Of a stretch of 64,000 nt of DNA, positions 911 through 21,624 are shown piece by piece. A program made the translations under genes and the position numbers. The stretch covers positions 590 through 64,589 of the forward strand of contig ONNQ01000016.1 in assembly GCA_900319245.1 (NCBI GenBank), given 5' to 3'. The notes beneath the pieces are model-generated. The model searched no databases, was not told the DNA's origin, and worked only from the letters and a program-made list of their open reading frames with translations. Positions within the stretch are counted from its first letter, which is position 1. Each line of letters begins with the position of its first letter. Source of the stretch: an uncultured Lachnospiraceae bacterium. GTDB lineage: Bacteria > Bacillota > Clostridia > Lachnospirales > Lachnospiraceae.

Positions 911-3181
911 TCAGCTGTCGAATTCGCTCTTGATGCGAAGCCCCAGGACCAGTACTCCCTTCTTGGTACGGTGCCGTTCAAACTCCCTCTGCGCCAGGGC
1001 GCCATAGAAGTCCGCGGTGCCTCTGGCGTACTCGCCCATGCGAAGGCACCAGGCGCGGTACTCCTGATACAACTCGCCGGACTTCTCCCGATAGCTTGGA
1101 TCGATCTCACAACAGTCCTCCAAGAATTCTCCCATCCAGTCATTCTGCCCGCGGTAAGCATCGATGGCGTCCTGCACCACTTGGGGATTCTTCAAATGAA
1201 AATCCTTGTCAATGATGCGCCGGGCCCCTTCGATAATCCACGAAAGCACAGCCGGACCCGCGTGCTCAAAAAGGAAATCCGCATAGTTTTTCACGTCGCT
1301 CTTTCCCTCAAACACGGCATTAAAGGGAATCACGATGAGCCGCCTCCAAGTGCCCTCATCGGCTGCGCCCACCTTAGGCAGGTGGTTCGTGTACAAGACC
1401 AAAGTGTGTGACGGCGTGAAGGATGCGGGCTTGCAGAACTTCTTCTCACCGTAAATGTCATCGGTGGAAGTGAGCTGTTTGACCACAGAGGTGTTGAGAC
1501 GCATGCCCTCTTCCAGCTCCTTGGCCAGCGCCAGGCGCACGCCCTTAAGTTCCGCCATTTCCGGCTTTACATTCCTTCGGCAGCCGACGGTCAGGGTGTC
1601 CGCTGACACGTTCCCTGCGTATCCGCCGAGGACCTTCGCGATGGTATTCCAGAATGTCGACTTGCCGTTGCGGCCTTCCCCATACGCGATGATCATGGCC
1701 TCCATGTAAACCTTGCCGATGGCAGAAAGACCCACAACCTCCTGCACGTAATCGATCAGCTCCTGGTCGTTCAAGAAGGTCTTATTCAGAGCATCCTGCC
1801 ACAGGGCCTCTCCCTGGTCGCCGGGTTCCACTGCCGTAACCTTCGTACAGTAGTCCTTCCAGTCATGTTCCTGCATGCCTTCCAGTCCATCCACCAGGCG
1901 AACAGATCCCCGAGGCGTATTGAGAAGAAGCGGATCGGCATTGAGCTCCTCCAGCTTCACTCCAACCATGGGCTTAGCTGCTTCCATAGCCGAGCGGATG
2001 TATTTGATGTTCCGACGGCCCATCACGAACTTGTGATAAGCGGCTGCCGCCAGGTATTCCATAAGCAGGCGGAGCTGTTCACCGGTAAGCCCCTCCATAG
2101 CTCTTTTTCCACCGGACAGCGCCTCTTCGCCGGCACCGGAGTTTAGGACCGCCTGCTTTGTGGTGAACATGAGGAGCTCCGCATCAGCAAGCTGCTGATC
2201 CAAAAACTCGATCGTTGCACCGAGCGCCGCCTCCTTCGATTCCTCCCAGTAGGTGCCGTTGTAGCGGAAAAAGTCTGTCGCCGGGTTGAAGCAGATCTCG
2301 TCTCCGTATTCCTTTGACAGGACCTTCGCCTGCCCGATATCAGAGTAGTCCTCGGGCTTTAAACACCCAGCGGGTCCGGCGATCTTGGCGGTATTGTATT
2401 TCTCAGGCGGGACGTACCCTTCCTGTGCCGTGACGACCTTCTCGAACTTCTTTGCGCTGAGCCAGATCTTCCTGAGCTCCTCGCTCGGCAAGGGCGGATC
2501 ACACTTTTTGGCTTCCTCCTGGAAGATCTGATGCGAGATGTCGTTCCAGCCGTATCGCTTGACAACCCGGCCGGCAAACCGGCTCATGGTGGCGTTCCGA
2601 CTCCCTTCCTTAATGGTATAGCTGCCGTAGCTGCCCCGTCCCATCCCTTCGTCGAAGTCATCCTCTTCTATGACTTCATCCAGTTTCTTCTCCCCAGGGA
2701 AGTATTCAACCTGGGGATCGTTTGTCCCATAGAAGAACCTGGCCGCATCCAGTGCTTTGGGATCGACATAGGGAAAGGCAAGGGCCACCTTCTGCTTCAT
2801 GGCCTTGTAGGCATCCGGATCGTTTATCTCGCTAATCTCCAGAAAGGCATGGTACTTGGGCCTTGCGGGCCTGCCGTTTTTCACCTTCATGTGGTTCCTG
2901 CTGTAATGGATCCCGATCGTCACATCCGGGAATGCTGCCCGCAGGTCCTGCGGCGTCACCCAGTCCTCCGGGTTCTCAGAGTGGTCATTATCAAATTCCA
3001 CAGCCAGGCAGTTGCTGCTGATAAAGTTTGCACTGCTGCGGTAGCTGTTCCTATATGCAGCGCAGACATAGTCGCGTGCGACTGCCTGCTTAAGTGATGC
3101 TGCGTCTGTCACTTCGGCCTTGTGCGGGTAGAGGCAGTTGTCTTCCCGTCCAAGACAATTAGCGTAATAAAAAGTAAACAT
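911..3181 (-). CDS. phage/plasmid primase-helicase, P4/D5 type
   Basis: A 756-residue replication protein. The N-terminal third carries primase-like features (AVEFDND around residues 60-66, then HYSRNHMK and RPKYHAFLEI). The C-terminal half is a D5_N plus superfamily 3 helicase: Walker A GEGRNGKST at 501-509, Walker B ALAKELEEG near 551-559, sensor VLYTNHLP near 595-602 and the arginine-finger segment GTWRRLIVIPF near 610. It would unwind the origin and prime element DNA. It is the largest gene of the leftward arm and follows the 296-residue gene after three bases, with its own AAGGAGG site. Identification of the helicase domain is secure. Primase activity is inferred from family architecture. 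Confidence 0.95.
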   Translation of the reverse strand: MFTFYYANCLGREDNCLYPHKAEVTDAASLKQAVARDYVCAAYRNSYRSSANFISSNCLAVEFDNDHSENPEDWVTPQDLRAAFPDVTIGIHYSRNHMKVKNGRPARPKYHAFLEISEINDPDAYKAMKQKVALAFPYVDPKALDAARFFYGTNDPQVEYFPGEKKLDEVIEEDDFDEGMGRGSYGSYTIKEGSRNATMSRFAGRVVKRYGWNDISHQIFQEEAKKCDPPLPSEELRKIWLSAKKFEKVVTAQEGYVPPEKYNTAKIAGPAGCLKPEDYSDIGQAKVLSKEYGDEICFNPATDFFRYNGTYWEESKEAALGATIEFLDQQLADAELLMFTTKQAVLNSGAGEEALSGGKRAMEGLTGEQLRLLMEYLAAAAYHKFVMGRRNIKYIRSAMEAAKPMVGVKLEELNADPLLLNTPRGSVRLVDGLEGMQEHDWKDYCTKVTAVEPGDQGEALWQDALNKTFLNDQELIDYVQEVVGLSAIGKVYMEAMIIAYGEGRNGKSTFWNTIAKVLGGYAGNVSADTLTVGCRRNVKPEMAELKGVRLALAKELEEGMRLNTSVVKQLTSTDDIYGEKKFCKPASFTPSHTLVLYTNHLPKVGAADEGTWRRLIVIPFNAVFEGKSDVKNYADFLFEHAGPAVLSWIIEGARRIIDKDFHLKNPQVVQDAIDAYRGQNDWMGEFLEDCCEIDPSYREKSGELYQEYRAWCLRMGEYARGTADFYGALAQREFERHRTKKGVLVLGLRIKSEFDS

Positions 3182-3184
3182 AGA

Positions 3185-4075
3185 TTATTCCTCCTTTGGG
3201 AGTTGATACTCCTTGGGCACATAGGCAGCAGGGTTGTTACGCTGCTTTCCTTTGCGATAAGGTTTGATCCAGACCTGCTTGCCGGACTTATATGTCCTCA
3301 TGTGACCGGCTACTCCCCAGCATGGGCAGGTGATCTTATGATGGCATTGCGTATCCTGCCGCTTGATTACGTCGTCTGAGACCCTGATCACCTTAATCAT
3401 CTTCGTCTTACGAACCTGCTTGTACCTGCCCTTACGTTTGATGGTCACAGTCTTTTCAACTTCCGCCGTTCCGGTACTGACCAGTACCTCGGGCCGCTTC
3501 ACTGATATCCTCTGTACCGCCATATAAAGCGCTTTGATCGTGCGGGCAAACTCATTAAAGTAATCCATGTCAGATAACATGTGATCTGTCTCCGGATCGT
3601 CGTTATAATAAGAAACCGCCTGGCCGGAGCAGGTCAGCATCTGGCCGGTCTCTATGTCTTTAAGGGTCGTTGCGCAGAGCGTTACAACGCAGTTGCACAT
3701 GGTTCCCCCGTTGTTCACATAGCAGTAGGCATCGATGAACGGGATGATCGAGGTCGCTGCCCCTTCCATAAAAGGAACAATAAAGTCATCATCGTTCATC
3801 AGCGTCCTGCGAAAACAGATGTATGTGTTTTCCTGCTTTCCTTCCTCACCCACAATGACTGTGAACTCCGGGATTGATGGGCGTTTCAGCGTTTCCGAGG
3901 AAAAATACTCTGTCTCGATCACTTCTTCTGCCATTGCGATGACCTGAGGCTCAGTGAGCATTAATCGATCCAGATCAGTCCAGTTCTCTCCGCGTCCTTT
4001 CCACCGTTTCGAATAACGCCTAAGGGCGTCTTCACGAATTCTCATTCCCTGAATCCTAAAAGGGCTGCCTGCCAT
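3185..4075 (-). CDS. phage protein of unknown function with C-terminal Cys/His motif
   Basis: A 296-residue protein of no recognised enzymatic family. The N-terminal two thirds is a mixed domain with several Cys residues (MCNCVVTLCATT, MLTCSG). The C-terminus has a basic stretch and then CHHKITCPCWGVAGHMRTYK followed by GKQVWIKPYRKG. This W-x-V-x-GH-x-R-x-YKSGK-x-V-W motif recurs at the C-terminus of many Firmicute phage proteins and may be a small metal-binding nucleic-acid module. The start has an AAGGAGG site. It lies immediately upstream of the primase in the same operon, so a replication-associated role is inferred only. Confidence 0.75.
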   Translation of the reverse strand: MAGSPFRIQGMRIREDALRRYSKRWKGRGENWTDLDRLMLTEPQVIAMAEEVIETEYFSSETLKRPSIPEFTVIVGEEGKQENTYICFRRTLMNDDDFIVPFMEGAATSIIPFIDAYCYVNNGGTMCNCVVTLCATTLKDIETGQMLTCSGQAVSYYNDDPETDHMLSDMDYFNEFARTIKALYMAVQRISVKRPEVLVSTGTAEVEKTVTIKRKGRYKQVRKTKMIKVIRVSDDVIKRQDTQCHHKITCPCWGVAGHMRTYKSGKQVWIKPYRKGKQRNNPAAYVPKEYQLPKEE

Positions 4076-4135: not shown

Positions 4136-4468
4136 TCAGTCATCCACATCGCAGCGCTGGTCGTTGATGACATCGCGTGCAAAGTCGAGCGCCTTCATGA
4201 CTGCATCCAGTGCTGCATCTCCGCAGCAGGCGATCTCAATCCCGAAGATCTCTCCATCGTCGCTGGTGACCGGCTCGAAATGGAAATCGCCTTCCATACA
4301 CACGAGGGCCAGATATGTTCTGCCTCCGGCCTTTCTACAGGGTGTTCCTTTATACCCGGTTGTGCCTGCTTCGACCATCAGCTCTGTGCTGTGGCCCATG
4401 ACCGACCGCTCGAACGTCTCCACGATCCTGTCGTTTATCCTTTTGTGTTTTTCCTCAACTGCAAACAT
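4136..4468 (-). CDS. small phage protein of unknown function
   Basis: A 110-residue acidic protein (MFAVEEKHKRINDRIVETFE at the N-terminus, DFARDVINDQRCDVDD at the end) with a central beta-rich section and the segment GTPCRKAGGRTYLALVCMEG. It belongs to no family recognisable by eye. It has a strong AAGGAGG site. Its start codon lies inside the 3' end of the 33-codon ORF at 4455-4556 in another frame, which suggests coupled translation. It is near the promoter-proximal end of the leftward replication arm. Confidence 0.7.
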   Translation of the reverse strand: MFAVEEKHKRINDRIVETFERSVMGHSTELMVEAGTTGYKGTPCRKAGGRTYLALVCMEGDFHFEPVTSDDGEIFGIEIACCGDAALDAVMKALDFARDVINDQRCDVDD

Positions 4469-4556
4469 TGATCTCTTCCTCCTTTAAATATCTGAGTGGT
4501 ATTCCTGCTTCTGCTGTGTCACGCCCTGCGGGTGAATCCCTGTTTCTGATTTCCAT
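4455..4556 (-). CDS. 33-residue leader ORF of the leftward arm
   Basis: This very short ORF (MEIRNRDSPAGRDTAEAGIP at the N-terminus, ending in EEEINVCS) starts nine bases after an AAAGGAG site. It is the first ORF downstream of promoter element A and overlaps the start of the next gene by 14 bases in a different frame. The position, the ribosome binding site and the overlap argue for translation. Its role (leader peptide or small effector) is unknown. Confidence 0.5.
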   Translation of the reverse strand: MEIRNRDSPAGRDTAEAGIPLRYLKEEEINVCS

Positions 4557-4587
4557 GGGAAAACATCTCCTTTCATCGTTCTGCTTT

Positions 4588-4616
4588 CCCATGCCTGCTT
4601 AGGCGCGATTTTTATA
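4588..4616 (-). promoter_or_regulatory. 29-bp control element, copy A (drives leftward arm)
   Basis: Read on the minus strand this is TATAAAAAT, six variable bases, then TAAGCAGGCATGGG. It points at the leftward arm; an AAAGGAG site and the 33-residue ORF begin about 20 and 32 bases after the 14-mer. TATAAA is -10-like. No TTGACA-like -35 sits 17 bp upstream, so an activator, an alternative sigma factor or an operator role for the 14-mer is possible. Confidence 0.7.
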
Positions 4617-4655
4617 ACGAAAATCGAAAAATTTGTATCTTTCTTCGAGGGCGGC

Positions 4656-4684
4656 TATAAAAATGTCCCCTAAGCAGGCATGGG
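4656..4684 (+). promoter_or_regulatory. 29-bp control element, copy B
   Basis: This has the same layout (TATAAAAAT, N6 = GTCCCC, TAAGCAGGCATGGG) on the plus strand, exactly 80 bp before copy C. No ORF begins between B and C. A weak GCCG/CGGC hairpin followed by six T's (about 4690-4716) could end a very short RNA started here. Confidence 0.65.
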
Positions 4685-4735
4685 AGTATAGCCGGAGATG
4701 CGACGGCGACTTTTTTAAAAAAGTTGAAGATCCGT

Positions 4736-4764
4736 TATAAAAATCCGGCTTAAGCAGGCATGGG
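4736..4764 (+). promoter_or_regulatory. 29-bp control element, copy C (drives rightward arm)
   Basis: TATAAAAAT, N6 = CCGGCT, TAAGCAGGCATGGG on the plus strand. It precedes the AAAGGAG site and the start of the 112-residue gene by a leader of about 45 nt, mirroring copy A. A 16-bp palindrome, ACTTTTTTAAAAAAGT, lies at 4709-4724 just upstream. Confidence 0.7.
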
Positions 4765-4795
4765 TAGTTGAGAACAAAAGAAAGGAGTTTTTGAG

Positions 4796-5134
4796 ATGAC
4801 AAAAAATGAAAAACAAGTTCTCATTGACGGACTCAGGAAGCTGGCAGCGGACGTGGCGGATCTCGCCTCGACGCTGGAAGGCATTGAGGCCACGTCACAG
4901 AATCAGGATGGTCCCGCTGAGGAATCTGCTCCCGCTGCCGCGGAGGAGACACCCGCCAAGGTGTACACCTACGAGGAAGTCAGGGCGATCCTCGCCGAGA
5001 AGTCCAGGACAGGGTACCGGGCAGAGGTCAAGGCACTCCTCACCGCTCACGGTGTGAAGCAGCTTTCCGATGTGAAGTCCCCGGAAGAGTTCGCCGCTAT
5101 CGTTGCGGAAGCGGAGGTGATCGGAAATGGCTAA
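4796..5134 (+). CDS. phage Rrp5-like/coiled small protein
   Basis: A 112-residue protein, first gene of the rightward arm. The N-terminal helix (KQVLIDGLRKLAADVADLAS) is followed by an Ala/Glu/Pro-rich linker (residues 40-60) and a C-terminal helical unit YTYEEVRAILAEKSRTGYRA with VKALLTAHGVKQLSDV. Proteins of this layout are regularly found directly before DUF2800 in Firmicute prophages and are often labelled rRNA biogenesis protein Rrp5 on weak similarity. The C-terminal unit may bind nucleic acid or a replication partner. It has a strong AAAGGAG site and overlaps the DUF2800 gene by eight bases. Confidence 0.75.
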   Translation: MTKNEKQVLIDGLRKLAADVADLASTLEGIEATSQNQDGPAEESAPAAAEETPAKVYTYEEVRAILAEKSRTGYRAEVKALLTAHGVKQLSDVKSPEEFAAIVAEAEVIGNG

Positions 5135-6263
5135 ACATGCTTACCTCGCTGCCTCCGCCAGTGAAAGGTGGCTCAGGTGCCCTCCCAGCGCAAAGCTCTG
5201 CGCCCAGGAGGAGGACCGCGGATCACCTTACGCGCAGCAAGGTACGGACGCCCACGAGCTCGCGGCCTATCTCACCGAGAGGGCGCTGGGTCGTAACACC
5301 CGCGATCCCACTGAGGATCTGACCTGGTACGACGCGGAGATGCAGGAAGCCGCTGAAGGCTACGCCGCCTTCGTAATGGAGCAGGTCGCTGAAGCCAAAA
5401 CGCTCTGCGCAGACCCGCTGGTCTGTATCGAGCAGACGCTGGATTTCTCCAAGTGGGTCGAGCATGGATTCGGCACCGGCGACTGCGTGATCGTTGCGGA
5501 CGACCTGCTGCACATCATTGATCTGAAATACGGTCTTGGAGTGCTGGTCAGTGCCTCCGGCGAGGACGGGACCGGCAACAGCCAGCTCAAGTGCTATGCG
5601 CTGGGTGCGCTGGATACCTTCGGAGACCTCTACGACATCCGCCGGATCAAGCTCTCGATCTACCAGCCGCGCAGGGACAACGTAGACACGTTTGAACTCA
5701 GCCGTGAGGACCTGCTGGCATGGGCAGAGGGTGTGCTGGCCCCGATCGCCGCGCTGGCCTACGAGGGACTTGGCGAATTCGCTGCCGGTGACCACTGTCA
5801 GTTCTGCAAGGTCAAGGCGACCTGCCGTAAACGGGCGGAGTATAACCTGGATCTGGCAAAGTACGATTTCGAGGAAGGACCGCTGCTGGAGGCAGACGAG
5901 ATCGCTGAGATCCTTCCGCAGATCGACAGCCTCGTATCCTGGGCCGAGGACATCAAGTCCTACGCTCTGGAAAAGGCGCTGTCCGGAGTCCGCTACCCCG
6001 GCTTCAAACTGGTCGAAGGCCGGAGCAACCGCAAGTACACCGATGAGGTGGCAGTCGCCACGGTCGTATCGAACGCCGGATACGATCCGTATGAGAAAAA
6101 GCTACTGGGCATCACAGCGATGCAGAGGCAGCTCGGTAAGAAGAAGTTTGATGAGCTCCTTTCCGGACTCATCGTAAAACCACAAGGTAAACCGGTGTTG
6201 GCTCCCGAGTCGGACAAGCGTCCGGAGTTCAACACCGCAGCAAACGATTTTATGGAGGATTAA
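5127..6263 (+). CDS. DUF2800 family nuclease (PD-(D/E)XK, RecB/Cas4-like)
   Basis: A 378-residue protein with the diagnostic DUF2800 start (AASASERWLRCPPSAKLC and then GTDAHELAAYL). The nuclease core shows GFGTGDCVIVADDLLHIIDL followed by K, supplying the D...DxK catalytic residues, and the NSQLKCYALGAL helix. A Cys group, HCQFCKVKATCRKRAEY around residues 225-245, resembles the metal- or Fe-S-binding Cys set of Cas4/AddB-like exonucleases. It probably resects or recombines element DNA together with the downstream DUF2815 ssDNA-binding protein. The gene is coupled to its neighbours (eight-base overlap before, four-base gap after). Confidence 0.92.
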   Translation: MAKHAYLAASASERWLRCPPSAKLCAQEEDRGSPYAQQGTDAHELAAYLTERALGRNTRDPTEDLTWYDAEMQEAAEGYAAFVMEQVAEAKTLCADPLVCIEQTLDFSKWVEHGFGTGDCVIVADDLLHIIDLKYGLGVLVSASGEDGTGNSQLKCYALGALDTFGDLYDIRRIKLSIYQPRRDNVDTFELSREDLLAWAEGVLAPIAALAYEGLGEFAAGDHCQFCKVKATCRKRAEYNLDLAKYDFEEGPLLEADEIAEILPQIDSLVSWAEDIKSYALEKALSGVRYPGFKLVEGRSNRKYTDEVAVATVVSNAGYDPYEKKLLGITAMQRQLGKKKFDELLSGLIVKPQGKPVLAPESDKRPEFNTAANDFMED

Positions 6264-6267
6264 TAAA

Positions 6268-6846
6268 ATGGCAAAGGGAATGAAGAACCCGACAAAAGTT
6301 GTAACTGGTAGACACACTGTTTTCTCTTATCTGAACGTCAATGAGCCCAAGACCCCCATGGGCGGCGGAACCCCGAAGTACAGCGTCTCGCTGATCATTC
6401 CGAAATCCGACACGGTGACCATCGCCAAGATCCGCGCCGCGATCCAGGCGGCCTACGATGAAGGCCAGTCTAAGCTCAAGGGCAACAGCAAGTATATACC
6501 CGCACTGGAAGATCTGAAGACCCCGCTGCGTGACGGCGACAAGGAGCGCAAAGGCGACGAGGCTTACAAGAATGCCTACTTCGTGAACGCGAACTCCACC
6601 ACCAAGCCGGGTGTGGTCGACGCAGACTGCCAGCCGATCCTTGATACCTCGGAACTCTACTCCGGGATCATCGGCAGGGCAAGCGTGAACTTTTACGCTT
6701 TCAACAGCAACGGCAACAAGGGGATCGCATGCGGACTCAACAACCTGCAGAAGCTCTCTGACGGCACACCGCTCGGTGGCCACAGCCGTGCTGAGGATGA
6801 CTTCGCTGATCTGGATGATGAGGATGACGAGGACTTCCTGTCCTAA
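6268..6846 (+). CDS. DUF2815 family ssDNA-binding protein
   Basis: A 192-residue protein of the DUF2815 family, which resembles T7 gp2.5-like single-stranded DNA-binding proteins. The N-terminus MAKGMKNPTKVVTG leads into an OB-fold-like region (TVFSYLNVNEPK, PKYSVSLIIPKSD), and the GRASVNFYAFN segment closes the fold. The last 20 residues are almost entirely acidic (DFADLDDEDDEDFLS), the hallmark tail by which such proteins contact polymerase and helicase partners. It lies between the DUF2800 nuclease and the polymerase, and a terminator-like hairpin follows directly. Confidence 0.92.
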   Translation: MAKGMKNPTKVVTGRHTVFSYLNVNEPKTPMGGGTPKYSVSLIIPKSDTVTIAKIRAAIQAAYDEGQSKLKGNSKYIPALEDLKTPLRDGDKERKGDEAYKNAYFVNANSTTKPGVVDADCQPILDTSELYSGIIGRASVNFYAFNSNGNKGIACGLNNLQKLSDGTPLGGHSRAEDDFADLDDEDDEDFLS

Positions 6847-6912: not shown

Positions 6913-8901
6913 ATGGAAATAAAATCGCTCAGCTTGGATTTAGAGACAAAATCAAGCGTCGACATCAGTAAATGCGGCGCCTACAAATACGCGGAGTCAC
7001 CGGACTTTGAGATCCTCCTTTTTGGCGTATCCGTAAACCACGGTCCCATCACCGTGTATGATCTTGCCTGCGGGGATACCGTCCCGGACGAGATCATCTG
7101 TGCCCTCTCCGATGACTCTGTGATCAAGACCGCCTACAATGCGGCGTTTGAGAGAATCTGCCTGTCCGTGTGGCTTCGAAGGTTCTATCCGCAGCACTTT
7201 AAGACCTACAGCATCCCCGGCGATCCCGTCCGGAACTACCTCGATCCGTCCTCCTGGAGATGTACCCTGGTATGGGCTGCCTACAACGGCCTGCCCCTAG
7301 GCCTTGAGAAGGTCGGCGCCGTCCTTGGCTTTGAGGAGCAGAAACTCAAAGAAGGAAAGGACCTCATCAAGTACTTCTGCTGCCCCTGCAAGCCCACAAA
7401 GAAGAATGGCGGCAGGACCTGGAACCTGCCCTGCCACGATCCGGAAAAATGGGCTTTATTTAAGAAATATAATGAGCGTGATGTTCTGGTAGAGCTCCAG
7501 ATCCAGGAACGGCTTAAGAACTACCCGGTTCCGGATTTCGTGTGGGAGGAGTACTGCCTTGATCAGGAGATCAACGACCGTGGCATTATGATCGATCAGG
7601 AAATGGTGACGCAGGCGCTTCGGATCGATGAGTTGTCAAAGACCGACCTGACTGTCAGGTTGAAGAGAAAGACAGGCCTAGAGAATCCGGGCTCGGTCAT
7701 ACAGATGAAATCTTATCTTTCAAAGAAAGGAATGGATGTCGACAGCCTTGGGAAGAAGGAAGTTGCTGCCATGATAAAATCGGCACCGGAGGATCTCGCA
7801 GAGGTACTTTCCCTTAGGCTGCAGCTTGCCAAAAGCAGCGTCCGCAAGTACCAGGCCATGCAGAACGCCGTCTGCGCTGACGGCCGTTGCCATGGAATGT
7901 TCATGTTTTACGGAGCCAACCGCAGCGGCAGGTGGGCCGGACGCTTGATTCAACTGCAGAATCTTCCTCAGAACCATATGGGAGATCTGGAGCAGGCGCG
8001 TGATCTGGTGAAGGCCGGTGATTATGAAATGTTAGACATGCTGTACGACTCTGTCCCCGGCGTACTCTCGGAGCTCATCCGCACTGCCTTCATCCCGCGT
8101 CCCGGATATAAATACATTGTCAGCGACTTTTCCGCCATCGAAGCTCGTGTGCTCTCCCACCTTGCCGGCGAGAAATGGCGTGCGGAGGTCTTCCACAAGG
8201 GCCGCGATATCTACTGCGAGAGCGCCAGCAGGATGTTCGGCGTTCCGGTTGAAAAGCACGGCATTAACAGCCACCTCCGGCAAAAAGGCAAAATTGCCGA
8301 GCTTGCCCTTGGCTATGGCGGCAGCGTCGGTGCTCTTACCGCCATGGGCGCCCTCGACATGGGGCTTTCCGAGGATGAGCTGCAGCCCTTGGTAGACATG
8401 TGGCGCAGCAGTAACCCGCACATCACTTCCTACTGGTGGGCTGTGGATGCCGCCGTCAAAAAAGCGATTAAACAAAGGTGCCAGACACGAGTTGGTGACA
8501 TCACTTTTGTAGTAAAGAGCGGTATGTTGTTCATTACGCTGCCTTCCGGCCGCCGGCTCTCTTACGTGAAACCCCGGATCGGCGAGAACCGTTTCGGCGG
8601 AGAGTCGGTCACCTACATGGGGATCGATGCCACAAAGCACTGGTCCCGGATCGAATCTTACGGTCCAAAATTTGTCGAGAACATCGTGCAGGCCGTGAGT
8701 CGGGATATCTTGGCTTACGCCATGAAAACCCTCCGCTGCTGTCAGATCGTCGGCCACGTCCATGATGAACTCATCATTGAATGTAGTCCTGACGTCTCGC
8801 TGGATGCCATCTGTGAGCAAATGGGGAGGACGCCCTCCTGGCTCCCTGGCATCGAGCTTCGAGCTGACGGGTACGAATGCGATTATTATCAGAAGCAATA
8901 A
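6913..8901 (+). CDS. phage family A DNA polymerase with 3'-5' exonuclease
   Basis: A 662-residue replicative polymerase of the phage PolA type. The exonuclease domain has LDLETKS at residues 8-14 (ExoI Asp and Glu) and YNERDV near 187 (ExoIII). The polymerase domain has motif A VSDFSAIEARVLSHLAG (403-419), motif B RQKGKIAELALGYGG (456-470) and motif C GHVHDELIIE (614-623), with both catalytic Asp residues present. No 5' nuclease domain is seen, as usual for phage versions. The AAGGA site lies inside the T-tract region of the preceding hairpin. Confidence 0.97.
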   Translation: MEIKSLSLDLETKSSVDISKCGAYKYAESPDFEILLFGVSVNHGPITVYDLACGDTVPDEIICALSDDSVIKTAYNAAFERICLSVWLRRFYPQHFKTYSIPGDPVRNYLDPSSWRCTLVWAAYNGLPLGLEKVGAVLGFEEQKLKEGKDLIKYFCCPCKPTKKNGGRTWNLPCHDPEKWALFKKYNERDVLVELQIQERLKNYPVPDFVWEEYCLDQEINDRGIMIDQEMVTQALRIDELSKTDLTVRLKRKTGLENPGSVIQMKSYLSKKGMDVDSLGKKEVAAMIKSAPEDLAEVLSLRLQLAKSSVRKYQAMQNAVCADGRCHGMFMFYGANRSGRWAGRLIQLQNLPQNHMGDLEQARDLVKAGDYEMLDMLYDSVPGVLSELIRTAFIPRPGYKYIVSDFSAIEARVLSHLAGEKWRAEVFHKGRDIYCESASRMFGVPVEKHGINSHLRQKGKIAELALGYGGSVGALTAMGALDMGLSEDELQPLVDMWRSSNPHITSYWWAVDAAVKKAIKQRCQTRVGDITFVVKSGMLFITLPSGRRLSYVKPRIGENRFGGESVTYMGIDATKHWSRIESYGPKFVENIVQAVSRDILAYAMKTLRCCQIVGHVHDELIIECSPDVSLDAICEQMGRTPSWLPGIELRADGYECDYYQKQ

Positions 8902-8946: not shown

Positions 8947-9603
8947 TTATTCATTCATCCTATATTCTTTGCCGATCTCTTTTGCACGTCTGAGCAGCTG
9001 ATATACCCTCGGCTCCGATACGCCAAGATCCGCTGCGATACTCGTGACGGAATCTCCCAGAAGCTCCCTTGCTTCAAAGGCCTTTGCGATCCTCGGATCT
9101 TCCGCATCCATGCGGGCGCGGATCTCAGCATACTCCATCTTTGCCACCGCCTGCTGCTCTACCGAATCAGCGGTCTCCGGCTCATATCCGTCCTCGACCA
9201 GGCCGTCCAAGGAGACGAGCGATGCCTGCTTTGTTTCCGGTGTCCTACCATAAGGGCATTCCGAGCACTTGTTGGTATCCTTGCATCTGATAAAGGCCTT
9301 GCGCTGTCCGGGCACCATGCATCTGGTGCTGCTGTATCCCCGAGAGTGCACGTTGTTGATGTACTCCCACTGCGCTTCTGCGAACGCCCTATTCGTTGTC
9401 TTGTAAAAGTACACGAGTATCCTCTGGCTGGAGCCGAGATGCAGATACCTGCAGTCCTCAATAGTTATCCCGTAATGGTTCATGTCATCCTTGTCCTTGA
9501 TCTCGATCGGAGCATCGTACAGAATCTCTCCATTCTCGCTCACATAGGATCTGTGCTTAAACTCACCGCTGTTACTTATATCAACCTTCTTTGTCCGAGC
9601 CAT
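8947..9603 (-). CDS. phage HTH protein, sigma-region-4-like, with Cys cluster
   Basis: A 218-residue protein. The C-terminal part has a helix-turn-helix of the sigma-70 region 4 kind (GDSVTSIAADLGVSEPRVYQ, about 184-203), preceded by an acidic helical linker. The central part has Cys at 95, 107, 113 and 116 (RCKDTNKCSECPYG), a possible zinc site. It runs opposite to the replication genes and ends at a shared terminator. Similar proteins occur in Firmicute prophages and are annotated as sigma factor-like or hypothetical. Regulation of the 29-bp elements nearby would be an attractive but untested role. Confidence 0.7.
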   Translation of the reverse strand: MARTKKVDISNSGEFKHRSYVSENGEILYDAPIEIKDKDDMNHYGITIEDCRYLHLGSSQRILVYFYKTTNRAFAEAQWEYINNVHSRGYSSTRCMVPGQRKAFIRCKDTNKCSECPYGRTPETKQASLVSLDGLVEDGYEPETADSVEQQAVAKMEYAEIRARMDAEDPRIAKAFEARELLGDSVTSIAADLGVSEPRVYQLLRRAKEIGKEYRMNE

Positions 9604-9973
9604 CTTGCTCTCCTTCCGCTTTTTGTCGCGAAACGGAGAGCCTCAAAATGACGCAAAGAAGGGTGCACTTAAAAGACCTGATTCTGGGAGCTTGTACTGA
9701 AGCTCTCCGTCTCTGGTTAAGTGCCATCCCTGTTCACTGGTCAGGCAGTTTTATTCAATTGTCACTGTAGACAAGAGGATGAACTCCCCTGATTCCGGTT
9801 CGGGCGGTCCTGTCTTCAGTGGGACAATTATGTCTTGTCCGGGGCATGAGCAGCTTGAGTGCTCAGACAGGTCTGCACTTAATGCCGGCCCGTCTCAAAA
9901 CTCAAGCATCACTCTTTTTTTAATACCCATCTAAAAAGGCAGCCCTCTCTTTTGACTGCTCTTTCTAGCTTTC
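9604..9973. other. intergenic region with inverted repeats and two doubtful micro-ORFs
   Basis: The region holds GCACTTAA at 9665-9672, its complement TTAAGTGC at 9717-9724, an inner GAGCTT/AAGCTC hairpin at 9688-9705, and a further GCACTTAA at 9875-9882. Two short plus-strand ORFs also fit: 9648-9770 (40 residues, GGAGAG site upstream) and 9779-9934 (51 residues, poorly spaced site). Neither resembles a known protein, so both are left unannotated. The minus-strand promoter of the 218-residue gene must also lie here. Confidence 0.4.
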
Positions 9974-11848: not shown

Positions 11849-12664
11849 TTATACCGCGATCCCTCTTCTGATGTAGAGAGGTAATTCCTTCGGATCCTCT
11901 GTCCTAATCAGGCCACACCTCTTCATGTGCACGAAAGCCGCGCTTTCCGACACGCCATATGTCTCCGCGATTTTCTGCCCGATCTCATCGAGAAAGACAT
12001 ACCAGTCCCGATATTGAAAGAATGGATCAATGCTGGGTCGTACAAAGATTCCATCCCTGTATCCAGCTTTTTTGTTGAGCGCCATGACAAACGGAACAAA
12101 TGTGGGCCTCGGCATCAGGATCGACGCCGCGTAGACATTCGCCTGGTGTTCCATGAAATCTCTATCCGTCCACTTCCTGTTTTCCGGTCTGTCAGTCTCA
12201 AGCATATTACTTCGGCACATGATCTTGTCCATGGTGTTCCTGGCTGCCAAAATGTCCTGACCGCAGAACGCCGGATAATGCATTGCGAAATGGCCGCCTT
12301 CATGGGCTATCGTGAACTGCGCAAATCCGTCTTCCCTGTCCATTACGTCCGAATCGATGATGATCGCTCCGGCGGGAAAGAGCTTGCTTACGCTTTTACC
12401 GTCTTCTCGTACCGGTATCATAGCGTCCTTAAACACTGTGATACCATTGATGCCCATTCCAGGGATTATGTTGTAAATGCCTTGGACATCTACCGCAGCG
12501 TTAAGATAGCTTTCAACAAAATGAAGCGCATTGATCTTTCCGGGCGTCTTCAAGAGATCCGGTTTATAATCACCGACCTGTGCCTCCGCATAAGCCATGA
12601 CTTCAAGATCACAGACAACAGGCGTGCCGTCATACTTCCTGTTGGGACAGTTGAATTCAATCAT
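11849..12664 (-). CDS. ImmA/IrrE-like metallopeptidase
   Basis: A 271-residue zinc peptidase of the ImmA/IrrE (M78) family, which cleaves or inactivates the partner repressor when the element is induced. The active-site helix is FTIAHEGGHFAMHYPAFCG with HEGGH at 121-125 (HExxH). The downstream FMEHQANVYAASILMP segment matches the family's ExxAN...LMP block. Its start overlaps the last codons of the XRE gene by eight bases, the classic immR-immA arrangement of ICEBs1-type elements. A C-terminal HTH-like tail (KIAETYGVSESAAFVHMKRC) is present. Confidence 0.92.
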   Translation of the reverse strand: MIEFNCPNRKYDGTPVVCDLEVMAYAEAQVGDYKPDLLKTPGKINALHFVESYLNAAVDVQGIYNIIPGMGINGITVFKDAMIPVREDGKSVSKLFPAGAIIIDSDVMDREDGFAQFTIAHEGGHFAMHYPAFCGQDILAARNTMDKIMCRSNMLETDRPENRKWTDRDFMEHQANVYAASILMPRPTFVPFVMALNKKAGYRDGIFVRPSIDPFFQYRDWYVFLDEIGQKIAETYGVSESAAFVHMKRCGLIRTEDPKELPLYIRRGIAV

Positions 12665-13058
12665 TGTCCTTTGTCTCCTTTACCCTTATGTAGTGGATGA
12701 ATTGCCTCCAGTCATCTTCATTGATGACTCCCTTCTTGGTCATACGGAGCGCAAACCTCGCCATTTCTCCGGCTTCAGAGTACATCATGATGTCGTCGAG
12801 ATCCCGCGGGATTCGGGAATTCTCCCTGGCAGCAAGATCGTACATCAGGGCAATGTCCTCTTCCGAAAACCGGAGGAACTCGATCAGCTTTTCAGTTTTC
12901 TCCTCATCGTATGGTTTGCGTCTCCCCTGCTCCACGTCGCTCACAAAACTGACGGAAACTCCCAGTTCCTCAGCAATATCTTTCAGCGTCAGCTCTCTGC
13001 TGTCCGATATACGTTTGGCTCTGAGGAATTGTCCATACCTCATGTTCTTTTCTTGCAT
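12657..13058 (-). CDS. ImmR-like XRE repressor
   Basis: A 133-residue HTH protein. The domain MRYGQFLRAKRISDSRELTL with DIAEELGVSVSFVSDVEQGRRKP is a typical Cro/C1 fold; the remainder is helical and acidic. It starts behind AAGGGA and overlaps the ImmA-like gene, so it is the probable substrate and partner of that protease. The upstream 187 bp is rich in inverted repeats that would serve as its operators. It likely holds the element in the quiescent state. Confidence 0.9.
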   Translation of the reverse strand: MQEKNMRYGQFLRAKRISDSRELTLKDIAEELGVSVSFVSDVEQGRRKPYDEEKTEKLIEFLRFSEEDIALMYDLAARENSRIPRDLDDIMMYSEAGEMARFALRMTKKGVINEDDWRQFIHYIRVKETKDND

Positions 13059-13245: not shown

Positions 13246-13935
13246 TTACCCATTATATATGATTGGCTCCCAGTAGATCCGTCCAAATTCTTCATCCTCT
13301 TTTTCGTTCTTTGGTATAGGCAGGAATTCAACTTCATGCTCACATGTCCACAATGAAAGCTTTCCTTTTACTGGGAAAGGTTTGATCGGTCTTGGATTCG
13401 ATAATATCCAGGCGTATTCTCCGGGCCCAAAAGAATCCATCATTGCACCCTTAAGGTGCTTCCTTTCAAACGGAACTATATCCTCTAAAGATACAACTCC
13501 AAGCGCGTGCCCCGGAATTGAACCTTTTTCTTTCTTTGCCGTGCTACAGATTAAGAGATCGCCTCTGTAACTGGTGGTCCATGTACGGCATTCGATCGTC
13601 TTTTGTCCGGCGACGATACTCATAGCATATACCGGATGAATTGACAGTGCTTTCATTGACATAATGGTGTCTTTATTGTCAACCTTTCTGGCATCCGTTT
13701 CCTGTTCCGAAACAGAACTATTCATCTTTTGCAATAAAGTTCTTAGAGCAATCAGCTCTTCTTCTGTCAATGTGACACCCTTTCCCATTTTCTCATGACC
13801 AGGTCCCCAATCTCGAATATCATACTTTGGTTTACCACCATTCCATGAGATTAAGTTCACTTCTTTTGTCCATCCTCGGGCGTTCTGAGACAAAACACCG
13901 ATGGATTGGATGATCTCATATTTAATATCTGCCAT
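13246..13935 (-). CDS. PC4/YdbC-like domain fused to an ASCH domain
   Basis: A 229-residue two-domain protein. Residues 1-75 match the YdbC branch of PC4-like ssDNA-binding proteins (GVLSQNARGWTKEVNLISWN followed by GGKPKYDIRDWGPGHEKMGK and GVTLTEEE). Residues from about 92 form an ASCH domain, a PUA-like RNA-binding fold (MKALSIHPVYAMSIVAGQKT, then IECRTW and YRGDLLICST, closing with LWTCEHEVEF). In other genomes these are usually separate proteins. The GGAGG site is 69 bases after the stop of the GIY-YIG gene, so the two are probably co-transcribed. Binding to ssDNA or modified RNA is inferred from the folds; no catalytic role is shown. Confidence 0.85.
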   Translation of the reverse strand: MADIKYEIIQSIGVLSQNARGWTKEVNLISWNGGKPKYDIRDWGPGHEKMGKGVTLTEEELIALRTLLQKMNSSVSEQETDARKVDNKDTIMSMKALSIHPVYAMSIVAGQKTIECRTWTTSYRGDLLICSTAKKEKGSIPGHALGVVSLEDIVPFERKHLKGAMMDSFGPGEYAWILSNPRPIKPFPVKGKLSLWTCEHEVEFLPIPKNEKEDEEFGRIYWEPIIYNG

Positions 13936-16025: not shown

Positions 16026-17552
16026 TTAACGTTCCATCTTCTGCTCAAGAACACTAAACTGAGGAATTAACCGCTTCAATTCTGATACAATTCTTTCCTG
16101 CTCTCTAAGTGGTGCAATGGGGATCAATGTATTAGCAATATCCCTCATAACCCAATTCTTATTTCCAACGCCTCTCGTATTCTCGGCACATTGCTTTTGA
16201 ACACAAGGCGAATTTATCACATTTATTAGATAATCGCGGTTAATTAGATCTATGTTGAATTTTAATAAAGCAACACTTACAAACAGACTGAATTTAATAT
16301 CCGTATCAACCGGAGCCGGTACTCCTGTTGTTCCCACCTTTGAAAGCAACACATCTCCACGTTCTGGATTGCATCTCATATTAAGCTCATCAGCTTCTTT
16401 TTCTGTAATGAACTTTGTGTTTGAGAACGAAATACAGCCAGAACTCATGTCTTTCACAGAAATAAACGGGACTCCCTCTGTCACATAATGAGGAGTCTTA
16501 TGAGTCCCGTCTGTTAACAGCTTTAGAATAGAGCCAAGTCTCACCCACTCCCAGCTCTCCGGAATATCGAAAGGAATCTCGTCTTCCGTAACCTCTGGAA
16601 GCTGTTTCTGCTTCTTTATCTTCCCTTCTTTAATTAGTCTCTTCTTCTCTTCGGCAATTTTCTTCAGTAGTAAACTTGCCGGTTCATCGTTCGGATCCTG
16701 TGGTACGAGCTTTCCCTGCACCGCTTCCTGAAGGATCGACTTCTTCATCATTTCCGGGAACGAGGCATTGAGCGTATTCAGTTTGGTACTGGCAGCTGCA
16801 TACTGCTCCACAAAGGGCATTAGTTCCTCGATTTTTGCGACAATGCGTTTCTGCTCTTCAAGGGGAGGAATCGGGATCAAAATTGTCTTAAGATCTGTTT
16901 TGTTAAACTTTTTCATTGCTGTCCCGGATGTAATCGCAATCAATTCTTCATACCCTAATGGAGACAGTAAAAAATGATACAAATAATCTCTTAACTGATC
17001 ATCTGCTAATCGCACCATTACGCTATTTGGTGCAAGCGTCATCTTTCTATTCAATTTTGGAACAATAAAAACTTTTCCAATCGAGCCTATATTGCTTAAA
17101 ACCAATTCACCGCCAAATAGATTAGAGTTATTTAGGAATTCATATCCATGTTTAGTGGTATATGTAAGGTTTTGTGTGAAGTCGTTTGAAAAATCTGCTG
17201 TCTTTACCAAGATTGCATAATCTTCAGTTTTCAAAGAGGGCGCATTTTCCCTCAATGAAGCAAAACTACCGCTCGCTACATAATCCGTAACTTTTTCGGC
17301 ATAATCTCCAAGCCTTACCCATTCCCATGTTTCTGGAATATCAAAAGGAATTTCGTTCTCTGCAATTGGTGATAATTCTTTTTCTTTCTTAATAATTCCT
17401 TGTTTAATCAAAGACTGCTTCTTCTTTTTGATTTCTTGTATTAATGAAACCGCTTTGCCTTCAGATAATTCTTGATTTACAAGCTTCCCCTGAATCGCCA
17501 GCTGCAGTATTGATCCCTTCAACTGTTCTGCTGTCATCATATCACTCACCAT
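16026..17552 (-). CDS. hsdS: type I restriction-modification specificity subunit HsdS
   Basis: A 508-residue DNA-recognition subunit with two target-recognition domains (about residues 75-240 and 330-490). Each is preceded by a repeated conserved segment (EIPFDIPETWEWVRLGDYAE and EIPFDIPESWEWVRLGSILK) and followed by helical spacers (PLEEQKRIVAKIEELMPFVE; PLREQERIVSELKRLIPQF). It pairs with HsdM for methylation and with HsdM and HsdR for restriction. It overlaps the hsdM stop by 11 bases. Both halves appear intact; no recombinase gene or second hsdS copy is present in the window, so there is no sign of shuffling here. Confidence 0.95.
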   Translation of the reverse strand: MVSDMMTAEQLKGSILQLAIQGKLVNQELSEGKAVSLIQEIKKKKQSLIKQGIIKKEKELSPIAENEIPFDIPETWEWVRLGDYAEKVTDYVASGSFASLRENAPSLKTEDYAILVKTADFSNDFTQNLTYTTKHGYEFLNNSNLFGGELVLSNIGSIGKVFIVPKLNRKMTLAPNSVMVRLADDQLRDYLYHFLLSPLGYEELIAITSGTAMKKFNKTDLKTILIPIPPLEEQKRIVAKIEELMPFVEQYAAASTKLNTLNASFPEMMKKSILQEAVQGKLVPQDPNDEPASLLLKKIAEEKKRLIKEGKIKKQKQLPEVTEDEIPFDIPESWEWVRLGSILKLLTDGTHKTPHYVTEGVPFISVKDMSSGCISFSNTKFITEKEADELNMRCNPERGDVLLSKVGTTGVPAPVDTDIKFSLFVSVALLKFNIDLINRDYLINVINSPCVQKQCAENTRGVGNKNWVMRDIANTLIPIAPLREQERIVSELKRLIPQFSVLEQKMER

Positions 17553-19029
17553 CCTCTTCTATCCCAAGAATGTCCGTGATCTTGGCAAGGATACGATCAA
17601 TATCCGCATTAAGGCTTGCCCGCTTCTCCTGGTACTGCTGGATTAGTTCCTTTGGAGGCAGGATTTCTTCTTCCTCGTGTGGATACCCACAAAGATCAAG
17701 ATTATAGTTGCCTTCTGCGATTTCGGCTGCGGTGTAGCACTTTGACTTGAAGGTATCAGTGTCTGAATCCTTGATCTCCGTGCGGTTCTCCCACCAAGCT
17801 CGCACATCATCGAAGTGCTCGGACTTCATCGGCTTGGTCTTGGAGAAGTGCTTGTATCCTTCTGGCATATCCATGCGATAGAACCATACATTCTTTGTGG
17901 TTCCTTCATTCTCAAAGAATAGGATATTTGTGGTGATGGACGTGTAAGGCGAAAAAACACTGCCGGGCATACGGATGATTGTATGCAGATTAAACTCGCT
18001 CATCAGCTTCTTCTTGATAGCCACTTTTGTATTATCAGTGCCGAACAGGAATCCATCGGGAAGGATCACTGCTGCTCTCCCTTCTGCTTTCAGTCTGTAC
18101 ATGATTACGGACATGAAAAGATCCGCCGTTTCCGAGCTGGCAAGGTCAGTAGGGAAATGGCCTTTCACATCTGCCTTTTCAGAACCACCGTAAGGAGGAT
18201 TCATCAGGACTACGTCAAACTGGTCCTTCTCTGTGTAGTCGAGCACATCCTTAAGCAGGGAGTTGTCATGGTAGACGCGAGGAACATCAACTCCATGAAG
18301 GAGCATATTCGTGACGCAGAGCATATACGGGAACTGCTTCTTCTCAATACCGTAAATGGACCTGTGCATGGCGTCAGAGTCCTCTGTGGTCTCCACCTGG
18401 TCCTCCAGTCTCTTGATCCAGCTGACGAGGAATCCCCCTGTACCACAGGCGAAATCCGCCATGGTCTCACCGATCTGTGGTTTGATCATCTCCGCCATGA
18501 AGTCCGTAACAGCGCGAGGGGTATAGAACTCACCTGCGCTGCCGGCGCTCTGCAGTTCCTTCAGGATCGACTCGTAAATATCGCCAAAAGCATGACTCTC
18601 CTCGTAGTCACCGAAATCAACGCTGTCGATTATATTGATGACCTGCCGAAGGAGGACACCGTCTTTCATGTACTGGTTGGCATCCTCGAAGGTGGACTTC
18701 ACGATAGCCTTTTTGATCGGTGTGTCGGCATCCACGTCCAGTCCTTTGAGAGTCGGGAACAGCGTGTTATTGACAAACTCAAGCAGCTGATCACCGGTCA
18801 AGGCAGTACCTTTGCCGTCATCTACCGCCCAATTCCTCCATCGGCAGTCCTCCGGGATGATGGAGACATAATCCTCCTCATCAAACTCCCAGTTCTCTTC
18901 CTGTGCATCATACACTTTTAAAAAGAGCATCCATGCAATCTGCTCAATGCGCTGGGCATCACCGTTTATGCCTGCATCGTTGCGCATGATATCCCTGAGC
19001 CTTTTTACGAAACTTCCCAAATCACTCAT
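17542..19029 (-). CDS. hsdM: type I restriction-modification DNA methyltransferase HsdM
   Basis: A 495-residue N6-adenine methyltransferase. The N-terminal HsdM_N helical domain precedes the catalytic domain with SAM motif I FACGTGG (193-199), the GEFYTPRAV entry segment and motif IV NPPYGG (277-282). It follows hsdR by seven bases and overlaps hsdS, giving one R-M-S operon. Length and motifs are those of an intact enzyme. Confidence 0.97.
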   Translation of the reverse strand: MSDLGSFVKRLRDIMRNDAGINGDAQRIEQIAWMLFLKVYDAQEENWEFDEEDYVSIIPEDCRWRNWAVDDGKGTALTGDQLLEFVNNTLFPTLKGLDVDADTPIKKAIVKSTFEDANQYMKDGVLLRQVINIIDSVDFGDYEESHAFGDIYESILKELQSAGSAGEFYTPRAVTDFMAEMIKPQIGETMADFACGTGGFLVSWIKRLEDQVETTEDSDAMHRSIYGIEKKQFPYMLCVTNMLLHGVDVPRVYHDNSLLKDVLDYTEKDQFDVVLMNPPYGGSEKADVKGHFPTDLASSETADLFMSVIMYRLKAEGRAAVILPDGFLFGTDNTKVAIKKKLMSEFNLHTIIRMPGSVFSPYTSITTNILFFENEGTTKNVWFYRMDMPEGYKHFSKTKPMKSEHFDDVRAWWENRTEIKDSDTDTFKSKCYTAAEIAEGNYNLDLCGYPHEEEEILPPKELIQQYQEKRASLNADIDRILAKITDILGIEEDGE

Positions 19030-19036
19030 AATTCTG

Positions 19037-21358: not shown

Positions 21359-21624
21359 GGGATCCTCCTCCCTATGAGAGCACATAATTAATCCAGTATG
21401 AAACCATTTTATCAAAAAGCAATAGTTTAATATAGTAAGGAATTAGACTGCAAAGCTTGGTGCGTCAAAAATAGACCAGCACAGTAATAGATTACTCTTC
21501 CAACCAACAAGAACCCCTATTTCTCGAAAATAGTAAAATCATTTTCTCGTTTGCCCAAATAGTAAAATCGCAGCTACAACCCTCCAAAATCAGAGTTGTG
21601 GATATGTTCCTTCAGACATAAAAC
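21359..21624. other. gene-free junction region between the Hsd operon and the chromosome
   Basis: AT-rich, no ORF with a ribosome binding site. It must contain the leftward hsdR promoter. It contains the direct repeats at 21528-21569 listed separately. Gene content changes from accessory to conserved chromosomal to its right, so an island boundary probably falls here. Confidence 0.4.
21528..21569. repeat. two 13-bp direct repeats
   Basis: AAATAGTAAAATC occurs at 21528-21540 and again at 21557-21569, 29 bp apart, within the junction region. The function is unknown; an attachment-site remnant or regulator sites are possible. Confidence 0.55.

Follow-up and report, generated by a model that had tools for sequence, protein, structure and literature searches.

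A 29-bp element that precedes replication and integration genes in a group of rumen phages and resembles a shared on-switch

Gene organization of the locus

The stretch of DNA analysed here, termed the window, comprises 64,000 nucleotides from an uncultured Lachnospiraceae bacterium and is part of contig C34, the left end of which lies about 5 kb from the repeated element described below. Near this end, two sets of phage replication genes diverge from a common intergenic region. The left arm, on the minus strand, encodes a primase/helicase-like protein (911..3181), identified by domain matches to D5_N and DUF5906, a 296-amino acid protein (3185..4075) belonging to a PHROG of unknown function, and a 110-amino acid protein (4136..4468). 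The last of these is found at 77–95% to that of phage G401 in phages carrying the TAA class of the element and at 51–62% in those carrying the TTT class. The right arm, on the plus strand, begins with a 112-amino acid protein (4796..5134) assigned to phrog_408, function unknown. It continues with proteins of 378 amino acids (5127..6263), which we take to be DUF2800-like, and 192 amino acids (6268..6846), presumably DUF2815-like, neither of which has an NCBIfam family, and with a DNA polymerase of the PolA kind (6913..8901, 662 amino acids), whose matches are under curated cut-offs.

Beyond the polymerase, the minus strand encodes a 218-amino acid protein (8947..9603). It has a conserved Cys motif in its N-terminal half and a helix–turn–helix (HTH) at the C-terminus that resembles sigma region 4, again with matches under curated cut-offs. 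A conserved leader precedes this gene (9604..9905, minus strand) and is predicted to be structured, with a ribosome-binding site that could be sequestered. Further along the same strand are an XRE regulator and an ImmA/IrrE-like M78 peptidase (11849–13058). The XRE protein is 97–99% identical among the window, G397:C2 and G401, versus 84–86% for its M78 partner. Adjoining this pair is a reading frame (13246–13935, minus strand) that encodes a PC4-like domain and, C-terminal to it, an ASCH domain, and which has no match in the related loci compared. Three consecutive large open reading frames on the minus strand (16026–21415) look like a type I restriction–modification system, judged from the starts of the frames alone.

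Copies of the element

The intergenic region between the arms has three exact copies of the sequence TATAAAAAT-N6-TAAGCAGGCATGGG, with zero mismatches, and no more are present elsewhere in the window. All are of the TAA class. Copy A (4588..4616, minus strand) precedes the left, primase arm and copy C (4736..4764, plus strand) precedes the right, DNA polymerase arm. Copy B (4656..4684, plus strand) is in tandem upstream of C and is oriented like the right arm. An ATG follows 31 nt past the end of copy A and likewise of copy C (for C, at 4796), with an AAAGGAG in each interval. A sequence-only reading of the window had pointed out both the three copies and the mirror-image placement of the outer two, and both observations are borne out. 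When 100 dinucleotide-preserving shuffles of the window were scanned with up to three mismatches allowed, the mean and the maximum count of the pattern were zero. Two lesser points of that reading find no support as meaningful features. The distance of 80 bp between B and C is true of the window, but start-to-start distances in seven phages are 80, 83, 82, 79, 81, 83 and 72. A partial match in the primase gene near position 3080 is at chance level, as the 14-mer with up to three mismatches has seven matches in the window against 5.12 expected.

A scan of the entire genome (2.9 Mb, 80 contigs) for the exact pattern reveals a fourth copy on another contig, at C41:16603, ahead of a serine-recombinase (integration) operon that consists of a gene for a 71-amino acid protein and serine recombinases. 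All four copies are found on one contig in the metagenome-assembled genome (MAG) RUG12657 (CACZJD010000002.1) and in the 49.9-kb record IMGVR_UViG_3300028886_003665. In both, the replication copies and the recombinase copy are about 37 kb apart, and one copy has a single mismatch. With these two records as the basis, the four copies are assigned to one phage type, which for the window's own genome we infer across two contigs. Control of the replisome, the role first proposed, thus fits the positions at both replication arms but not as a sole role, since the element also lies before the recombinase operon.

Consensus and conservation

Exact scans yielded 10 stretches from viral contigs and four stretches of genome contigs from three rumen Lachnospiraceae MAGs. 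A relaxed scan with TATAAAAA-N10-GCAGGCATGG yielded 30 stretches, of which 23 were retained and seven (L056, L060, L061, L068, L070, L071 and L072) dropped before counting, together with L018 from a scan of family genomes. The eight dropped stretches have the triplet ATG, AAC or TTC, and all are inside same-strand open frames of 409–1473 codons. The alignment has 39 distinct instances from seven contexts: seven each of copies A, B and C, 15 from recombinase operons with the 71-amino acid gene, and one each from the G412 recombinase operon, an unrelated phage and the decayed phage L036.

The refined element is Y-TATAAAAA-N7-T(AA/TT)-GCAGGCATGGG, part of which is fixed by the search pattern: TATAAAAA, the 10-nt gap, GCAGGCAT and the final GG are found in 39/39 instances because the pattern demands them. 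Other features were not demanded. The base preceding TATAAAAA is a pyrimidine in all 39, and T16 is likewise present in all 39, a count that is partly a selection effect of removing rows by their triplet. G27 is found in 36 instances, where the pattern permitted A or T. The class triplet is TAA in 21, TTT in 17 and TAT in one. The ninth letter of the left half is variable (T 27, A 6, C 5, G 1). The fixed 9-mer and 14-mer of the sequence-only reading therefore need amendment at this letter, at the two class-dependent letters of the 14-mer and at position 27 (3/39).

Conservation of the element is also seen in loci retrieved by other means. Ten loci were fetched by similarity to the 71-amino acid protein, the motif not being in the query, and nine of these show the element at the equivalent position, differing from the TAA form at two letters or fewer. 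In the tenth, L054, whose 71-amino acid homologue is 58% identical, the element is absent. Across 27 loci scanned with up to five mismatches to the two blocks, copies appear at 0–1 mismatch (those with one being the three copies of G412), and what else appears is scattered matches at 4–5. In the loci compared, no other gap length was seen when a pyrimidine-TATAAAAA and up to three mismatches in the right half were allowed. The GCAGGCATGGG 11-mer has 35 distinct occurrences in 1,058,255 bases (1.06 Mb) of redundant loci. In 34 of them, a few chance stretches included, TATAAAAA is found at the constant spacing, and the thirty-fifth is truncated by a contig end. Since most of these loci were retrieved with both halves, the count speaks for these phages and not for sequences elsewhere. 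These phages have no free right halves. In four host genomes, eight contexts of free 11-mers were viewed and TATAAAAA is present in none.

Occurrence in other phages and in host genomes

Searching for the pattern in related phages was one test by which the sequence-only reading could have failed, and the element is present there. It is also found outside this backbone. In the unrelated phages G410 (20 kb scanned) and G414 (28 kb scanned), a single TAA copy is present in each. At E 1e-3, what they have in common with the other phages is limited to a recombinase, part of the lysin region, a short ParB-like segment and some weak open reading frame matches. The G410 copy ends 41 nt ahead of a gene for a 163-amino acid protein. 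G414 has the same gene run, followed by a protein matching AAA_25 and DnaB_C, that is, a DnaB-like helicase. By these predicted functions, the element precedes replication genes in two phage backbones. In the decayed phage L036, the element ends about 180 nt ahead of the leader RNA of the 218-amino acid gene.

Four host genomes were searched with up to two mismatches to the two blocks, and of the 12 matches, 11 belong to phages or prophage remnants; the twelfth has two mismatches and lies on G398:C57. Among 397 family genomes, seven others have a weak, three-mismatch match, and a reversed-pattern control matches two genomes. Five of the seven weak matches are inside same-strand open frames of 200–531 codons; L015 is solely in an opposite-strand frame and L021 in no frame, so that L021 may be a genuine copy. 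With at most one mismatch, 392 order-level genomes gave three new matches, all of which, as well as a match in G315, are inside open reading frames. Searched at the limits used, 50,697 phage records contain nothing that matches the element region, the leader or the 218-amino acid protein, and literature searches by motif letters and topic found no published report of the motif.

The viral record L089 (IMGVR_UViG_2799112819_000002) is compact, with four copies in 12.4 kb and with replication genes, a lysin-like gene, recombinases and an XRE gene all side by side. It may be a deleted prophage or a satellite.

Two sequence classes

The class triplet divides the elements into TAA and TTT species. 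Copies of both kinds, replication and recombinase, are present in five phages: that of the window's genome, G397:C2 and G401 (TAA), G409 (TTT) and G412 (TTT, with TAT in copy B). In all five, the replication and recombinase copies belong to the same class. The N7 spacer differs among copies within one phage, and the agreement is therefore not accounted for by mere duplication of a single site. In a tree of 17 recombinase proteins, class requires two changes, and in none of the 200 bootstrap trees is one change enough, while the well-supported branches by themselves force only one change. The agreement within phages suggests that each phage has one trans-acting, sequence-specific factor, probably encoded by the phage. 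Both classes are also found within a single MAG, RUG12657, where a binning error is possible.

Promoter-like features

The sequence TATAAA in the left half has five of the six letters of TATAAT, the final T being missing. The element has the promoter-like look noted earlier. As to the −35, called poor in the same description, no sigma-70 promoter with a −35 hexamer 16–18 nt before the −10 was found in the window at 4400–4900 or in L089 at 7500–7900 (shuffle means 0.5 and 0.2), and the 39 instances have no fixed column upstream of position −2. In the recombinase loci L058, L062 and L107, a terminator-like hairpin (−22.5 to −24.7 kcal/mol) with a run of seven T ends 9–10 nt ahead of TATAAAAA. 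These hairpins come from a separate analysis; a scan for unbroken stems did not list the hairpin in its region. So short a distance leaves little room for an upstream promoter, and the element itself probably carries the whole promoter. Five copies in different contexts end 31–45 nt ahead of a start codon. The element is not a palindrome, the best overlaps with its own reverse complement being 4/6 and 6/10 letters, and thus it differs from the palindromic dimer sites of the CI/lambda type.

Candidate regulators

The 218-amino acid protein, one of the candidates put forward from the sequence alone, fits best. Its gene is found in the window, in G397:C2 and in G401 (92% and 81%). A covariance model of the leader located a diverged second locus, L132, which is contig C51 of RUG12657; it encodes a homologue at 73% and has kept the leader. 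The L132 polymerase is at 93% to those of the TTT phages G408 and G409, 87% to that of the TTT phage G412 and 85–88% to those of four TAA phages. A TTT recombinase copy is present on contig C104 of the same MAG. Polymerase similarity and this TTT copy make L132 a probable member of the TTT lineage; L132 itself has no element. The gene is thus present in these TAA phages and in L132, by this link in both lineages, and in L036 the element lies before its leader. On these grounds, the 218-amino acid protein is preferred, with moderate confidence, over the other candidates as the reader of the element. The C-terminal HTH hardly differs between L132 and the TAA phages, and a class difference would therefore have to be read elsewhere in the protein.

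Relatives of this protein are few. Profile and protein searches of viral contigs found only G401 and a fragment in L039, and a search of 150 family genomes only G000 and G126. No relative was found by tblastn or profile in the 20 and 28 kb of G410 and G414, and by the same methods no regulator common to these two and the other phages was detected except for weak HTH-region matches. A PDB sequence search gave nothing below E 0.36. The similarity to sigma region 4 is weak, and none to region 2 is reported. In L111 (G126:C50, 3660–7146), a distant homologue (37%) is beside a serine recombinase and an XRE gene; by eye, the latter resembles the XRE gene behind the phage recombinases. The element was not seen in the first 20 kb of G126.

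The XRE proteins, also proposed as readers, are not supported. The XRE protein encoded behind the recombinases is near-identical in L008 (TAA) and L066 (TTT) and cannot set the class; its gene was not found directly behind the recombinases of the window's own genome. The other XRE protein (XRE133) and its M78 partner are present in the window, G397:C2, G401 and L036, as well as in the 14-kb fragment L039, which lacks the element. The pair was attractive because it adjoins the element in L036. However, G407 has the pair (77%) and no element within three mismatches in 44 kb, and the pair is not among the matches of L132. A site that occurs with, and only with, an ImmR/ImmA pair is thus not what is observed. 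In the G407 XRE133 protein, the stretch VSVSFVSDVEQGRR differs at one residue, and other repeats are found near the phage's own switch region.

Leader RNAs and base-pairing

The long leader of the 218-amino acid gene is predicted to be structured and riboswitch-like. It is found in the window (9604–9905, minus strand), G401 (L033, approximately 3043–3316), L028 (approximately 9187–9480, minus strand), L039 (approximately 9690–9959) and L132 (3185–3334, minus strand, 3′ part). The sequence GCTCTCCGTTT has two possible partners, the ribosome-binding site GGAGAGC and, as judged by eye, an upstream AAACGGAGAGC; the two hairpins would be mutually exclusive. The folding z-score is −6.06. In five sequences, 47 pairs are seen in the 3′ part, six of them changed on both sides; the covariation term is small. 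No Rfam match was found with E up to 1.

A different pairing is seen in leaders of the recombinase operons. In L045 and L048, GTTCTCCC upstream of the element could base-pair with GGGAGAAC, which lies at the ribosome-binding site of the 71-amino acid gene, and in L054, which has no element, both sides of the pairing are changed together (GTCCTCC/GGAGGAC). Translational control of the 71-amino acid gene is possible. Pairing of this type is found in TAA recombinase leaders and in the TTT leaders L048, L049 and L064. It is lost in L058, L062, L107 and L066, and it was set aside as an explanation of the element. A hairpin within the element is not indicated either: in the 28 distinct cores, the pairing of N7 with the fixed half is equalled by 129 of 300 shuffles of N7.

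Proposed function and alternative explanations

The element of this group of rumen phages, placed before replication and integration genes, looks like a shared on-switch read by the phage's own regulator. In the proposed mechanism, the host RNA polymerase would use TATAAAAA as a −10 without a −35. The class triplet and GCAGGCATGGG, about one helical turn downstream and at or just past the transcription start, would be bound by a phage-encoded regulator. One regulator would thereby switch on both replication arms and the recombinase operon together, and excision or integration would be coupled to replication. The regulator would most likely be the 218-amino acid HTH protein acting as an early activator, itself restrained by the variable CI-like repressor region of the phage and by the structured leader RNA. 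This combination, a short phage promoter that includes a recognition signal of its own and the 218-amino acid protein as the early activator that couples the recombinase operon to replication, is advanced tentatively, at a little less than even confidence. Doubtful is a bolder form, in which the element represents a new class of phage promoter: −10-only, with a second block downstream of the start that is read from downstream by a sigma-region-4-like protein, with switchable three-base classes, with excision linked to replication, and with an activator translated only once the leader frees its ribosome-binding site.

Activators that bind downstream of the start site are rare, and a repressor would suit this position as well or better. 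This raises the question of whether the right half is instead an asymmetric operator, at which a phage repressor covers the start site and TATAAAAA is a mere −10, in the manner of L5-clade repressor operators. Such an operator is the strongest alternative, if an unlikely one. The downstream position and the asymmetry are as expected, the two specificity classes resemble immunity types, and there is a precedent in a two-domain repressor that acts as a monomer on an asymmetric site (PMC9283540). Against it, the phage loci compared have no free right half, unlike dispersed stoperators, and no copy was seen at another gap. In addition, the CI-like genes differ among phages (215 amino acids in the window, 260 in G401 and 309 in L132, the last judged from the start of the gene alone), while the element hardly varies, if at all. 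A host-encoded factor exploited by several phages would account for the TAA class in two unrelated backbones and for the failure to find, among all the fragments, one phage-encoded regulator that they share. It appears improbable, given that all but one of the 12 matches in the four host genomes, at up to two mismatches, belong to phages or prophage remnants and that RUG12657 has TAA and TTT together, unless its contigs were wrongly binned.

Perhaps the element acts as a 5′ RNA tag or structured RNA common to the mRNAs. The 14-mer would indeed be near each mRNA 5′ end if TATAAAAA is the −10; inverted repeats flank the element in L036 and copy B of the window, the L036 stretch folding better than 200 shuffles; and GTTCTCCC is pairable with the ribosome-binding site in many recombinase leaders. 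Yet the flanking pairings are absent from other copies, N7 pairing does not exceed that of shuffled sequences, and the window has no Rfam match at gathering score (two sub-threshold matches appear in five loci), so that an RNA role is very unlikely. Least probable is that the copies are iterons of a replication origin, which the sequence-only reading thought the region might be. Three copies are indeed located between the divergent arms, where the GC skew also switches sign, a change equally expected from divergent transcription alone. But the copies are only three, in both orientations and with a spacing that varies among phages, rather than regular direct repeats beside an initiator gene; an extra copy is located about 37 kb away before the recombinases; and the unrelated phages G410 and G414 have a single copy in 20–28 kb.

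If the element is indeed a switch read by a phage regulator, it defines a likely early regulon of a group of rumen Lachnospiraceae phages whose element region, leader and 218-amino acid protein have no match among the 50,697 phage records at the limits used, and it ties replication and integration genes about 37 kb apart to one switch. With its two natural specificity classes, it would be a system in which to ask by what means a site beyond the start recruits RNA polymerase or blocks it.

Relation to known systems

The element fits none of the following types: the sigma-70 promoter with a −35, the palindromic operator, the dispersed stoperator and the iteron. It is classed here as a putative early phage promoter–operator common to several operons. 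The mobile element ICEBs1 represents a type of control by an ImmR/ImmA pair. The phages described here resemble it in encoding an XRE regulator and an M78 peptidase in the same phage, but the pair is missing from the probable TTT contig L132 and present in the element-free G407. The C1 operators of phage P1 are an asymmetric site common to several operons of a temperate phage, and their position relative to the −10 is not known to be fixed. The asymmetric multi-operon site is thus a shared property, whereas the fixed −10 distance is a difference. Late promoters of phage T4 (TATAAATA) are phage-specific, lack a −35, have a strict TATA-like −10 and need a phage factor. The strict TATA-like sequence, here a putative −10 with no −35 found, is alike in the two, as would be the need for a phage factor, and the strict downstream block of 11 bp is found only in the element described here. 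The candidate factor is a further difference, with its weak likeness to region 4 and none reported to region 2.

Cluster A (L5-clade) mycobacteriophages have asymmetric operators/stoperators, with several copies per temperate genome and a specificity that differs between related phages (PMC6550527, PMC9283540). The likeness is in the several copies of one asymmetric site and in the specificity varying among related phages. The difference is in number and position: there are four copies here, three directly before operons and copy B just upstream of another copy. In the loci compared, free right halves, as would be expected of copies inside transcription units away from promoters, are not seen, and the downstream block is always joined to TATAAAAA at a fixed gap.
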